Source: Novosphingobium beihaiense
Lineage (GTDB): Bacteria > Pseudomonadota > Alphaproteobacteria > Sphingomonadales > Sphingomonadaceae
Direction: 5' to 3'
Length of the DNA: 64,000 nt
Assembly (NCBI RefSeq): GCF_022832375.1
Contig: NZ_JALHLG010000024.1
Span: 1 to 64,000 of the forward strand
Shown here piece after piece: positions 47,067 through 50,437 of the stretch. The notes under the pieces were generated by a model, which worked only from the letters and a program-made list of their open reading frames with translations, had not been told where the DNA came from and searched no databases. Each line of letters begins with the position of its first letter. The first letter of the stretch is position 1. A program made the translations under genes and the position numbers.

Positions 47067-48122
47067 ATGCCTCTTCTCGAAGCCCGCAATACCTACAAGC
47101 CCTTCGAATATCCCTGGGCCTACGACTTCTGGAAACGCCAGCAGCAGGTCCACTGGCTGCCCGAGGAAGTGCCGCTGGGCGAGGATTGCCGCGACTGGGC
47201 GCAGAAGATCTCCGAGCACGAACGCAACCTGCTCACCCAGATCTTCCGCTTCTTCACGCAGGCCGACGTGGAAGTGCAGGACTGCTACCACGAGAAATAC
47301 GGCCGCGTGTTCAAGCCGACCGAGATCAAGATGATGCTCACGGCTTTCTCCAACATGGAGACGGTGCACATCGCGGCCTATTCGCACCTGCTCGACACCA
47401 TCGGCATGCCCGAAAGCGAATATGGCGCCTTCCTCGAATACGAGGAACTGAAGGCCAAGCATGACTACATGCACACCTTCGGCGTCGATTCGGACGAGGA
47501 CATTGCCCGCACGCTCGCCATGTTCGGCGGCTTCACCGAAGGCGTGCAGCTTTTCGCCAGCTTCGCGATGCTGATGAACTTCCCGCGCTTCAACAAGATG
47601 AAGGGCATGGGCCAGATCGTCACCTGGTCGATCCGCGACGAATCGCTGCACTGCGAAGGCATCATCAAGCTGTTCCACACCTTCGTGAAGGAACGCGGCT
47701 GCCTGACCAAGGCGGTGACGGAAGACATCATCGACTGCTGCCAGAAGACGGTGCGGCTTGAGGATAACTTCATCGATCTGGCCTTCGAGATGGGCCCGGT
47801 GCCGGGCATGAACGCCAAGGACATCAAGAAGTACATCCGCTACATTGCGGACTGGCGCCTCAGCCAGCTCGGCCTGCCCGCGATCTACATGGTAGAGGAT
47901 CACCCGCTGCCTTGGCTGACCCCGCTGCTCAACGGCGTAGAGCACGCCAACTTCTTCGAGACCCGCGCGACCGAATATTCGAAGGGCGCCACCCGCGGCG
48001 ACTGGAACACGGTGTGGGCCAACTTCGACCAGCGCCGCAAGGCTCAGGCCAACGACGTGGCCGAAACCGAAGACGATGGCACCGAGCCCGACATGTTCGG
48101 CGGAACGCAGGCGGCGGAGTGA
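47067..48122 (+). CDS. nrdB: Class Ia ribonucleotide reductase, beta subunit
   Basis: NrdB holds the di-iron/tyrosyl-radical cofactor that lets NrdA reduce ribonucleotides. The 351-residue protein has METVHIAAYSH with iron ligands Glu98 and His101 and radical Tyr105, and a second ligand pair in RDESLHCEG. The C-terminal tail, needed to dock NrdA, ends DMFGGTQAAE. ATG at 47067 follows CCGGAG; in-frame sequence upstream is leader. nrdA is not adjacent on either side. Directly after the stop (three bases) begins the promoter of a restriction-modification operon. Confidence 0.96.
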   Translation: MPLLEARNTYKPFEYPWAYDFWKRQQQVHWLPEEVPLGEDCRDWAQKISEHERNLLTQIFRFFTQADVEVQDCYHEKYGRVFKPTEIKMMLTAFSNMETVHIAAYSHLLDTIGMPESEYGAFLEYEELKAKHDYMHTFGVDSDEDIARTLAMFGGFTEGVQLFASFAMLMNFPRFNKMKGMGQIVTWSIRDESLHCEGIIKLFHTFVKERGCLTKAVTEDIIDCCQKTVRLEDNFIDLAFEMGPVPGMNAKDIKKYIRYIADWRLSQLGLPAIYMVEDHPLPWLTPLLNGVEHANFFETRATEYSKGATRGDWNTVWANFDQRRKAQANDVAETEDDGTEPDMFGGTQAAE

Positions 48123-48124
48123 GG

Positions 48125-48153
48125 TTGACCGGAACAATATAAGAACATACTGT
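48125..48153 (+). promoter_or_regulatory. Promoter with LexA (SOS) box before the restriction-modification operon
   Basis: TTGACC (48125-48130) and TACTGT (48148-48153) are spaced by exactly 17 bases. Inside the spacer lies GAAC-AATATAA-GAAC (48132-48146), a perfect match to the alphaproteobacterial LexA site GAAC-N7-GAAC (complement GTTC-N7-GTTC). LexA bound here would block RNA polymerase. The methyltransferase start is 21 bases further on. Confidence 0.72.
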
Positions 48154-48173
48154 GCTCCGAACAGGAGTGGTTC

Positions 48174-49130
48174 ATGCAGTCTATTGAATTTTGTGCTGGC
48201 GCCGGCGGTCAGGCTCTGGGGCTTGAGCGGGCGGGGTTCGAGCACACGGCGCTTGTCGAAATCGAAAGCGATTTCTGCAAGACGCTGCGGCTCAACCGGC
48301 CGCAGTGGGATGTCCGCTGCGAAGATATGAACCACTTCGACGGCCGCCCTTTCCAAGGGGCTGATCTGTTTGCCGGCGGGCTGCCGTGCCCGCCTTTTTC
48401 CGTGGCGGGAAAGCAGCTTGGCGATCTGGACGAGCGCAATCTGTTCCCGGCGGCGATCCGTCTGATCGATGAGATCAAACCGCGGGCCGTGATGATCGAA
48501 AATGTGCGGGGCTTTTTGTCTCCGGTTTTCGAGGACTATCGCCTGCATCTCAAATCGGAGTTCAAAAAGCTCGGTTACACGGTGGACTGGCGTCTTTTGA
48601 ATGCGTCGGATTTCGGCGTTCCGCAGCTTCGCCCCAGGGTGGTGATCGTGGCGCTGCAGAACGGTTTCGCGGATGGCTTCGATTGGCCCGAAGTCCATGC
48701 GCACAACCCGCCATCGGTGGGCCAGGTGCTCAAGGACATGATGGCCGCCAACGGATGGCTTGGCGCGGAGCGGTGGGCGGAGCAGGCGAACGACATCGCG
48801 CCGACAATTGTTGGCGGATCAAAGAAGCATGGCGGTCCCGACCTGGGGCCGACCCGGGCGAGAAAGGCCTGGGCGGCCATGGGCGTGGAGGGGCGCACAA
48901 TTGCAGAAGAAGCGCCCGGCCCCGATTTTTGCGGCATGCCCCGGCTGACTGTGAACATGGTTGCCAGGCTGCAGGGATTTCCCGGCGACTGGCAGTTCCA
49001 TGGCCGCAAGACGACGGCATACAGACAAGTGGGCAATGCTTTCCCGCCGCCTGTGGCCGGGGCCGTCGCCGAGAATTTGAAAGCGGCACTGGCGGCCCGG
49101 AAAGTGTTTCCCGTCAAGGCCGTTGCGTGA
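48174..49130 (+). CDS. C5-cytosine DNA methyltransferase
   Basis: A 318-residue type II modification enzyme that should protect host DNA from the endonuclease next to it. Conserved motifs: I FCAGAGGQALGLERAG (6-21), IV with Cys72 in GGLPCPPFSVAG, VI ENV (109-111), VIII QLRPR (151-155), X QVGNAFPPPVAGAV near the end. The target-recognition region between VIII and X is short. AGGAG lies eight bases before ATG. Base composition is visibly less GC-rich than nrdB, pointing to transfer. Its stop overlaps the endonuclease GTG start. Confidence 0.95.
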   Translation: MQSIEFCAGAGGQALGLERAGFEHTALVEIESDFCKTLRLNRPQWDVRCEDMNHFDGRPFQGADLFAGGLPCPPFSVAGKQLGDLDERNLFPAAIRLIDEIKPRAVMIENVRGFLSPVFEDYRLHLKSEFKKLGYTVDWRLLNASDFGVPQLRPRVVIVALQNGFADGFDWPEVHAHNPPSVGQVLKDMMAANGWLGAERWAEQANDIAPTIVGGSKKHGGPDLGPTRARKAWAAMGVEGRTIAEEAPGPDFCGMPRLTVNMVARLQGFPGDWQFHGRKTTAYRQVGNAFPPPVAGAVAENLKAALAARKVFPVKAVA

Positions 49131-50020
49131 ACCTGTTTCCGCATACGGGCTATCGCCCGTTGCCGGAGAGTCATCCGGACTTTGATGATCTGTCCAGCCT
49201 GGAGGCGGACCTTTTCGAAGCTGTAGGCGGGGCCGGGCAATTTCAGGAGAGATTGCGGTCCTTTTTCCGGTCGGCGATCGATGAAGTTATCGATACGGCC
49301 CGGACGGGGCGCTATTTTCTTTCCGATCTTGAGAAGACGGAAAAGACTTACCTGGGAACCAAGTTTGAAATTCTGCTGCGCGATTGGCTGCAGGTTCCTC
49401 ACGGTCTCGTTCTCGACTTGCTGATCGGCGCGCGCGAAGTCGATGTGAAATCCACGACTGGCGGGCGGTCCGGCTGGATGATCCCTCCCGAGGCCGTGGA
49501 TCAGCTGTGCATCCTCCTGCGCATGGATGAGGAGCAATCGGTCTGCGCGGTGGGATTGGTTCGTGCCCGGGAAGCCTATCTCAATGCCGGCCGGAATCGC
49601 GATGCCAAGGCGACCTTGTCCAGCGAGGGCCGGCATAACATCTGGTGGCTCGTTCAGGGTTTTGCCTACACTCCGAATTTCTGGACACTGATCGATGCCG
49701 GTCTCCGGGAGCGGATCATGCGCCATAACGGGGGAAGCAGAAGGCTGGCGGAACTCTTCGAACACTGCCTGGAAACGCCGGTATCCAGAGTGCTGATCGC
49801 AAGCATTGCGGCGCAGGACGATTTCATGAAACGTATCCGCCGGAACGGCGGAGCCCGGGATGTGCTGGCGCCCAAAGGGATTGCCCTTTTGTATTCTGGA
49901 ACAGACCGCGAGCTGATGTTGCGGCTCGGGCTTACGTTCGGGTATCGTGAATTCCTCTCATACCGTCCGAAGAATGCGGAAGAGGCATCCTGGCTTCGGG
50001 AGGCAGGGCACATCGATTGA
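49127..50020 (+). CDS. NaeI-type type II restriction endonuclease
   Basis: A 297-residue endonuclease. The segment TARTGRYFLSDLEKTEKTYLGT followed by KFEILL and REVDVKSTTGG marks the NaeI family. Putative catalytic residues Glu81, Asp97, Asp106 and Lys108 have exactly the spacing of NaeI Glu70, Asp86, Asp95 and Lys97 (16, 9 and 2). By analogy the target is GCCGGC with a second DNA site as activator, though specificity is inferred. The NaeI Leu43 position, where Lys gives topoisomerase activity, corresponds to Val54 here. The GTG start overlaps the methyltransferase stop (GTGA), so translation is coupled. Confidence 0.88.
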   Translation: MNLFPHTGYRPLPESHPDFDDLSSLEADLFEAVGGAGQFQERLRSFFRSAIDEVIDTARTGRYFLSDLEKTEKTYLGTKFEILLRDWLQVPHGLVLDLLIGAREVDVKSTTGGRSGWMIPPEAVDQLCILLRMDEEQSVCAVGLVRAREAYLNAGRNRDAKATLSSEGRHNIWWLVQGFAYTPNFWTLIDAGLRERIMRHNGGSRRLAELFEHCLETPVSRVLIASIAAQDDFMKRIRRNGGARDVLAPKGIALLYSGTDRELMLRLGLTFGYREFLSYRPKNAEEASWLREAGHID

Positions 50021-50029
50021 CGGGCAAGG

Positions 50030-50437
50030 ATGGACAAGCTTACGCCAGAGCGCCGAAGCGCGAATATGCGGGCTATCCGCAGCAAGAGCACCAAACCGGA
50101 AATGCTGGTGCGCCGGCTGGTCCATTCACTGGGGTATCGCTACAGGCTCCACCGCAAGGATTTGCCAGGCAAACCCGATCTCGTTTTCGCCGGAAAGCGT
50201 AAGGTTCTGTTCGTGCATGGCTGCTTTTGGCATCAGCACCCCGATTGCCGCGAAGGCCGGATACCCCGCACCCGGCAGGACTATTGGGTGCCCAAACTCG
50301 CAGCGAATGTCCGGCGGGACCGTCAGCATCAAGAGGCGTTGACGACTGCGGGCTGGGAGGTGCTGACTGTCTGGGAATGTGAGACACGGGACATCGCCAC
50401 TCTTACGCAGCGCCTGCAGGACTTTCTCGCATCTTGA
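50030..50437 (+). CDS. vsr: Very short patch repair endonuclease
   Basis: Vsr nicks beside T:G mismatches that arise when 5-methylcytosine deaminates, starting repair. The 135-residue protein has the active-site Asp50 in LPGKPDLVF, His64 in VHGCFWH, and zinc-binding Cys66, His69, Cys73 and Cys117, matching the E. coli enzyme closely. It starts nine bases after the endonuclease stop. Its presence beside a C5 methyltransferase is the usual pairing and supports a working modification enzyme. Confidence 0.95.
   Translation: MDKLTPERRSANMRAIRSKSTKPEMLVRRLVHSLGYRYRLHRKDLPGKPDLVFAGKRKVLFVHGCFWHQHPDCREGRIPRTRQDYWVPKLAANVRRDRQHQEALTTAGWEVLTVWECETRDIATLTQRLQDFLAS

Follow-up and report, generated by a model that had tools for sequence, protein, structure and literature searches.

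In the 64-kb stretch of the Novosphingobium beihaiense genome analysed here (the window, within which all coordinates are counted), genes for a C5-cytosine DNA methyltransferase (M), a NaeI-type restriction endonuclease (R) and a Vsr-type T:G mismatch endonuclease follow each other behind nrdB, the gene for the small subunit of ribonucleotide reductase. We consider it very likely that this restriction-modification (R-M)-Vsr cassette is transcribed from one promoter, that the spacer of this promoter is a LexA operator and that DNA damage would raise M, R and Vsr together. Judged by the sequence evidence set out below, LexA control of the operon is strongly supported, and DNA damage very probably increases its expression.

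The predicted operator, GAACAATATAAGAAC (48132-48146), reads GAAC-N7-GAAC, which is GTTC-N7-GTTC on the other strand. It lies inside the spacer between TTGACC (48125-48130, forward strand), which resembles a -35 hexamer and forms the first bases of the inserted cassette, and TACTGT (48148-48153, forward strand), located 17 bp further on and called a -10 hexamer solely for its resemblance to the consensus. Two bases separate the nrdB stop codon from TTGACC. A first-pass annotation had described this arrangement of hexamers and box just past the nrdB stop codon, and had read it as apparent LexA/SOS control. The arrangement was confirmed at exactly that place, and the control is supported, if not proven, by the matrix ranking and the conservation of the box.

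Matrix score and conservation of the box

Taken alone, the box is unremarkable. GTTC-N7-GTTC occurs twice in the window, compared with 1.41 times expected by shuffling, and 151 times in the 4.53-Mb genome, compared with 103 times for the reversed motif. Its significance therefore derives from its position, its matrix score and its conservation. The tighter motif GTTCYN5TGTTC has 22 sites in the genome versus 8 for its reversed form. Among the 22 are those of recA, lexA, uvrA, mmcB, a UvrD-type helicase gene and the R-M operon, as well as one at an ImuA-like gene, a label assigned by eye to a gene with no Pfam match. We built a LexA matrix from 68 distinct boxes. Most of them precede recA or lexA in genomes with relatives of the operon; the rest are the uvrA, uvrD and mmcB boxes of N. 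beihaiense itself. The R-M box scores 21.1, while recA, lexA and uvrA of the same genome score 25.2, 21.3 and 20.6, respectively; of these four, only uvrA was part of the training set. The 23 other boxes of the genome used as background score at most 12.1. Moreover, in the operon-carrying genomes a perfect box is found in 28 of 30 recA loci and in 29 of 29 lexA rows (28 genomes, one gene being in two pieces). A LexA gene was found in 28 of the 31 operon-carrying genomes, many of which are draft or metagenome assemblies. GTTC-N7-GTTC is also the LexA box of Caulobacter in the available text of PMC12700426, and one box of our genome (L007) is identical to the boxes of the Caulobacter genes ccna_01391 and ccna_02355, as far as these are given there.

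Two other places in the genome caught our attention. Two tandem high-scoring boxes (L001/L002, G000:C1:17896-17938), whose starts lie 28 bp apart, are found 5' of a frame of 90 amino acids with a hydrophobic N-terminus; our guess is that it perhaps encodes an SOS-induced small membrane protein like the Caulobacter division inhibitors. A further box, scoring 21.6 (L046, G000:C98:144435), lies about 0.3 kb 5' of an NPP1-family gene (PF05630).

We retrieved NaeI relatives on 38 genome contigs and counted the 31 loci with a methyltransferase in the usual place; this leaves out L060, in which the methyltransferase is cut off, and L078-L082 and L084, which have another arrangement. A perfect box lies within 130 bp 5' of the methyltransferase in 30 of these 31 loci, compared with 0.21 expected, a figure derived from 18 other boxes in 340,675 bp. 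Both checks proposed in the first-pass annotation, the ranking of the box against lexA, recA and uvrA and its conservation at the same place in homologous loci, thus come out in favour of its claim. What did not stand is its description of the case as uncommon: the box is instead a lasting property of the NaeI-type R-M family in alphaproteobacteria, conserved in operon relatives across two bacterial orders, and boxes are also found before some unrelated C5-methyltransferase operons.

A wider set was defined by methyltransferases of at least 53% identity. It comprises 61 rows, 50 of them cellular (genomes and one plasmid) and 11 of them viral contigs. Not included are L060, L163 (64% identical, with its start codon at the contig edge), L093 (methyltransferase only 27% identical), L079-L081 and repeat copies of genomes that the set already contains, for instance L085, L087-L089, L095, L097, L159, L214, L216 and L257; L078, L082 and L248 (less than 52% identical) were skipped. 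L160-L162, L164 and L165 were replaced by the longer stretches L202-L206, and the near-identical pairs L066/L067, L069/L070 and L073/L074 were both kept in the counts, with one of each in the tree. The perfect box is present in 45 of the 61 rows: 43/50 cellular, including 41 of the 47 cellular rows with a NaeI partner, and 2/11 viral, namely two of the three with NaeI and none of the eight whose fetched stretch contains no NaeI. Vsr adjoins the M-R pair in only 8 of the 50 cellular rows, so it is an optional part of the cassette. Erythrobacter colymbi JCM 18338 and Sphingomonas echinoides ATCC 14820, for example, have M and R with no Vsr found next to them.

In all 43 perfect cellular rows the box starts 29-95 bp before the start codon (search window of 130 bp). 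Its 30-bp flanks have pairwise identities of only 0.31 and 0.33 (23 rows; the identity of the half-sites is fixed by row selection). The box is reversed in five rows (one on a long branch), which amounts to at least three changes on well-supported branches of a tree of 58 methyltransferases. Because the box stays while its flanks diverge and its direction changes, we regard it as a maintained LexA site. A chance match or inherited leftover without regulatory effect is, in contrast, very improbable. It is true that chance alone makes GTTC-N7-GTTC frequent in this genome, and that read-through from nrdB may dominate expression. However, such a leftover does not account for boxes in 30 of 31 loci where 0.21 were expected, or for diverged flanks, repeated changes of orientation and a confined distance to the start codon in 43 rows.

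The system is sparsely distributed. NaeI relatives were found in 9 of 298 genomes of the window's family. Of 398 genomes sampled across the phylum, four have PF09126, all belonging to the window's family or class (both counts include the genome itself); none of 14 control genomes has it. A motif-switch test using NaeI of other proteobacterial classes was given up, as there are no such carriers among the 398 phylum genomes sampled. Two plasmid records have a NaeI match, and none was found in the phage records. The NaeI-directed scan of viral contigs confirmed none either; it was not exhaustive, since the methyltransferase-directed scan yielded three NaeI-encoding contigs. The methyltransferase relatives on the viral contigs L239-L247 are 60-67% identical. 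No NaeI accompanies eight of the nine in the fetched stretch, and Vsr lies close to several; these viral methyltransferases perhaps serve phage self-protection against GCCGGC-type restriction.

Cassette edge, genes and target site

Homology with the closest genome that is operon-less at this place, whose nrdB is 96% identical, ends at 48124, one base before the promoter. The cassette therefore begins at the promoter. No box is found behind nrdB in relatives without the operon (0/25 loci with readable 3' ends, excluding the own locus and L197, a 5' piece), and methyltransferase, NaeI and Vsr are absent from all 25 fetched stretches. The box moves with the cassette and not with the host locus. 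The nrdB gene (47067-48122, forward strand; stop codon 48120-48122; PF00268, 2.9e-77) is thus a host gene outside the cassette. It is present in the fetched stretch of 15 of the 50 cellular rows, all of them in the window's clade, where its 3' side is the preferred home of the R-M cassette despite the rarity of the latter.

As a separate observation, a box lies 50-115 bp 5' of nrdA (identified by Pfam) at L054:304, L057:1294 and L083:1522. In N. beihaiense, nrdA is on another contig (L200) and has a one-mismatch site, GTTCTCTTTATGTGC. Ribonucleotide reductase may thus belong to the SOS regulon in these bacteria. One could also suppose that the R-M box itself belongs to an SOS-controlled nrdAB unit and that the R-M genes merely follow, given the boxes at nrdA and the 15 rows with nrdB in the stretch. 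This is extremely improbable: the box lies 3' of nrdB, is absent behind operon-less nrdB, and occurs in 29 perfect-box rows without nrdB in the fetched stretch (some of these stretches being short), and nrdA of the window's own genome is on a separate contig.

Pfam confirms the gene content given in the first-pass annotation, with matches for methyltransferase, endonuclease and Vsr of 1.2e-68, 1.3e-54 and 8.2e-32, respectively. The first gene of the operon (48174-49130, forward strand, ATG at 48174) encodes the methyltransferase of 318 amino acids (PF00145, 232.4 bits over residues 1-303; TIGR00675), in which the catalytic PC motif is present as PCPPFS. The endonuclease gene (49127-50020, forward strand, 297 amino acids) starts with a GTG that overlaps the methyltransferase stop codon as GTGA. 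Its product matches PF09126 over residues 42-285 with 185.8 bits, the curated cut-off being 25, and is homologous to the solved NaeI structure 1ev7 over residues 11-270 (5.4e-35), much of the C-terminal part being conserved. All four residues aligned to E70, D86, D95 and K97 of NaeI, which we take to be catalytic, are identical. Position 43 is a V, whereas the topoisomerase-like mutant of NaeI has a K there. The vsr gene (50030-50437, forward strand, 135 amino acids; PF03852; TIGR00632) starts 9 bp beyond the end of the endonuclease gene. In its alignment to E. coli Vsr (1cw0), the active-site residues E25, D51, H64, H69 and D97 listed in PMC12907096 are all identical, as judged by eye. None of the genes shows signs of being broken.

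A Shine-Dalgarno-like AGGAG (48163-48167, forward strand) lies 6 bp 5' of the methyltransferase ATG, within a possible 5'-leader hairpin whose fold (48150-48175) is weak (z -1.1). Short hairpins around the Shine-Dalgarno sequence, with differing stem sequences, are seen in the Sphingomonadales leaders L048, L053, L056, L058, L061 and L091 and are weak or absent elsewhere. We dropped the hairpin as a second layer of control: L048 (z -4.1) and L061 (z -3.8) fold well, but many leaders do not.

The cassette is probably aimed at GCCGGC, as site counts and homology indicate. We take it that NaeI and NgoMIV both cut this site, and in L206 a 53%-identical methyltransferase is paired with an NgoMIV-family enzyme. 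The ratio of GCCGGC to CGGCCG in the genome is 0.35 (1874/5295); among 41 genomes of the genus, just one, G976 (1443/4176), has a lower value. Using a maximum-order Markov expectation, observed/expected GCCGGC is 0.29 in the window versus 0.79 in same-genus loci without the operon. The window contains no CTCGAG, compared with 28.5 sites expected (Markov). This site is rare in related genomes too, which points to another enzyme or bias acting on it.

Several observations weigh against LexA control of the operon. Seven of the 50 cellular rows lack a perfect box. Four of them have a one-mismatch site (L092, L098, L203, where it is poor, and L204), whereas within 130 bp in the other three, L051, L206 and L084 (in which the gene is inverted), not even a one-mismatch site is found. 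The 23 background boxes were picked outside GTTCYN5TGTTC, which favours the contrast with the R-M box; five intragenic boxes of the tighter list score 5.3, 6.7, 11.1, 13.5 and 16.5. R-M boxes score below core SOS boxes (median 20.0 versus 23.7, p 8e-4; 37 R-M boxes, copies from one genome counted). Nine Rhodobacterales rows (L063, L066, L067, L072, L073, L074, L077, L094 and L255) score only 9.2-13.4 and overlap the background, so that for these rows it is position and conservation that carry the argument. Other carriers show less depletion of GCCGGC (0.47 in Sphingomonadales and 0.66 in Rhodobacterales loci). Finally, there is no room for a terminator behind nrdB, and read-through could act as a constitutive supply that blunts induction.

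Boxes at other cytosine methyltransferases

We also surveyed C5 methyltransferases at large in two alphaproteobacterial families, with 30 listed loci each, one of which (L271) gave no methyltransferase frame. Methyltransferases less than 50% identical to that of the window were termed unrelated, and the interval from -160 to +60 was searched. Among the matches listed, a perfect box was found for 7 of 28 unrelated methyltransferases in the window's family, six of them scoring at least 15, and for 5 of 23 in family f14 (probably Rhodobacteraceae), four of them scoring at least 15. Together this makes 12 of 51, ten of them high-scoring, where about 0.01 per interval and 0.5 in all would be expected. 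The reversed motif was not found in the intervals of the sampled methyltransferases. The high-scoring boxes are those of L207, L211, L213, L219, L229, L267, L270, L273 and L276 and the ambiguous one of L227, which may just as well be that of a divergent GIY-YIG gene. The partner genes encode a NotI-type endonuclease in L219, Vsr in L207, L211 and L213, and in L270 an HNH/MTaX1 protein behind a phage terminase, a prophage context that offers a separate reason for SOS control.

Two other loci are informative. In L202 a 63%-identical methyltransferase has an HNH partner, and the box is present; conversely, the NaeI locus L093/L201 has only a 27%-identical methyltransferase, and here too the box is present. 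Taken together with the boxes at unrelated methyltransferases, these loci argue for repeated recruitment of LexA control, whereas the 39 of 51 sampled unrelated methyltransferases without a box weigh against it. On balance we lean towards the view that LexA control may be a recurrent, repeatedly evolved mode for cytosine-methylation operons in alphaproteobacteria, including NaeI-type and NotI-type R-M systems, pairs of helix-turn-helix methyltransferase and Vsr, and other C5 methyltransferases. The damage signal of the host would then replace a private controller, and SOS induction would bring about coordinated methylation, restriction and T:G repair.

The same loci bear on the possibility that the direct repeat is merely LexA-like and is the operator of another regulator, either the methyltransferase itself or a cassette-specific repressor. 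M.SsoII is a methyltransferase that regulates its own R-M system, according to the available text of PMC6100179, and the box accompanies the cassette rather than the host locus. We nevertheless find this unlikely. Both in the motif and in the bases preferred inside it, the boxes resemble those of recA and lexA in the same genomes, and the window methyltransferase has no extra N-terminal part, its Pfam domain beginning at residue 1. Moreover, the box is missing in the eight viral rows with a related methyltransferase that lack NaeI in the fetched stretch, but it is present at some unrelated methyltransferases and at the NaeI locus with the 27%-identical methyltransferase.

Proposed regulation and known systems

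We propose that LexA bound to 48132-48146 would cover the spacer between the promoter hexamers, a classic position for repression, and would keep the operon low in undamaged cells, where read-through from nrdB could supply a basal level. LexA would be cleaved upon DNA damage, or when single-stranded or phage DNA entering the cell activates RecA. Derepression would then raise the methyltransferase, the endonuclease by putative translational coupling through the overlapping codons, and finally Vsr. Phage infection and conjugation can induce SOS. As to the purpose, we would rank first that SOS acts as an invasion signal that raises restriction during entry of phages or plasmids. The second candidate is that extra methyltransferase and Vsr protect unmethylated, repair-synthesised DNA and so prevent self-cutting, and the third is damage-triggered self-cutting and death.

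This last purpose, in which the SOS-induced endonuclease would kill heavily damaged cells instead of defending them, would resemble what BapE does in Caulobacter. The bapE gene is a late-induced SOS gene that promotes damage-induced apoptosis (PMC12700426), and its product is termed an apoptosis endonuclease in the available text of PMC12907096. The endonuclease of the window sits in a predicted SOS operon, and its catalytic residues align with those of NaeI. However, in the window and in the loci whose order is seen, the box is followed first by the gene for the protective methyltransferase, so that both enzymes should rise together. We therefore consider killing a rather doubtful purpose and prefer a role in defence.

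A type II system switched by the damage repressor, with M, R and Vsr in one unit, makes it testable whether SOS serves as an infection alarm, as a trigger for protecting repaired DNA or as a death signal. Should the wider pattern be true, cytosine methylation in many alphaproteobacteria would shift with DNA damage. Methylome maps, resistance to phages and the uptake of DNA under stress would all be affected.

Open-access full-text searches, outside whose scope many subscription papers lie, listed no LexA-controlled type II R-M system; the nearest case was Caulobacter vsrA (PMC12907096). In the available text of a 2025 review the word LexA does not occur (PMC12707154), and the corresponding text of a 2013 review gives SymE and other toxins as SOS-regulated, with R-M genes unnamed (PMC3874152). 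The usual link between restriction and SOS is that restriction causes damage and that damage in turn suppresses restriction of type I, the type IA and IB enzymes being degraded by ClpXP once damage has occurred (PMC12707154). This damage-induced alleviation of type I restriction resembles the present case in tying restriction to damage, but the sign is opposite, since in the window damage should raise R and M.

In type II systems with a C protein, expression is likewise set by a transcription factor. The cassette has no C gene with C boxes before R or M: only 49 bp lie between the cassette edge and the methyltransferase start, and the M stop and R start overlap. Here the host LexA would exert control instead. 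The endonuclease is homologous to NaeI (type IIE, PDB 1ev7/1iaw), but in the window M, R and Vsr are read in one direction behind a LexA box. Five actinobacterial NaeI loci (L078-L082) differ by having other gene orders and no box before the methyltransferase; the only box near an actinobacterial NaeI (L082:5974) falls into what should be the N-terminal part of that gene itself. A search for the actinobacterial LexA motif before these five loci was uninformative, the sole GAAC-N4-GTTC (L080:256) lying more than 4 kb from the genes.

The closest parallel is found in Caulobacter. Its SOS regulon has the operator GTTC-N7-GTTC in common with the window, and the words methyltransferase and vsr do not occur in the main text of the report, as far as it is available (PMC12700426). 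Caulobacter vsrA is a Vsr-like gene that is SOS-induced and has a GTTC-N7-GTTC site, and the cytosine methyltransferase ScmA acts on YGCCGGCR, which contains GCCGGC (PMC12907096). However, according to the available text of the same report, the vsrA and scmA genes are unlinked and have no linked endonuclease gene, whereas in the window M, R and Vsr lie behind one promoter box. Moreover, the vsrA box lies inside the reading frame, where a block of elongation is suspected (PMC12907096), whereas the box of the window lies in the promoter.

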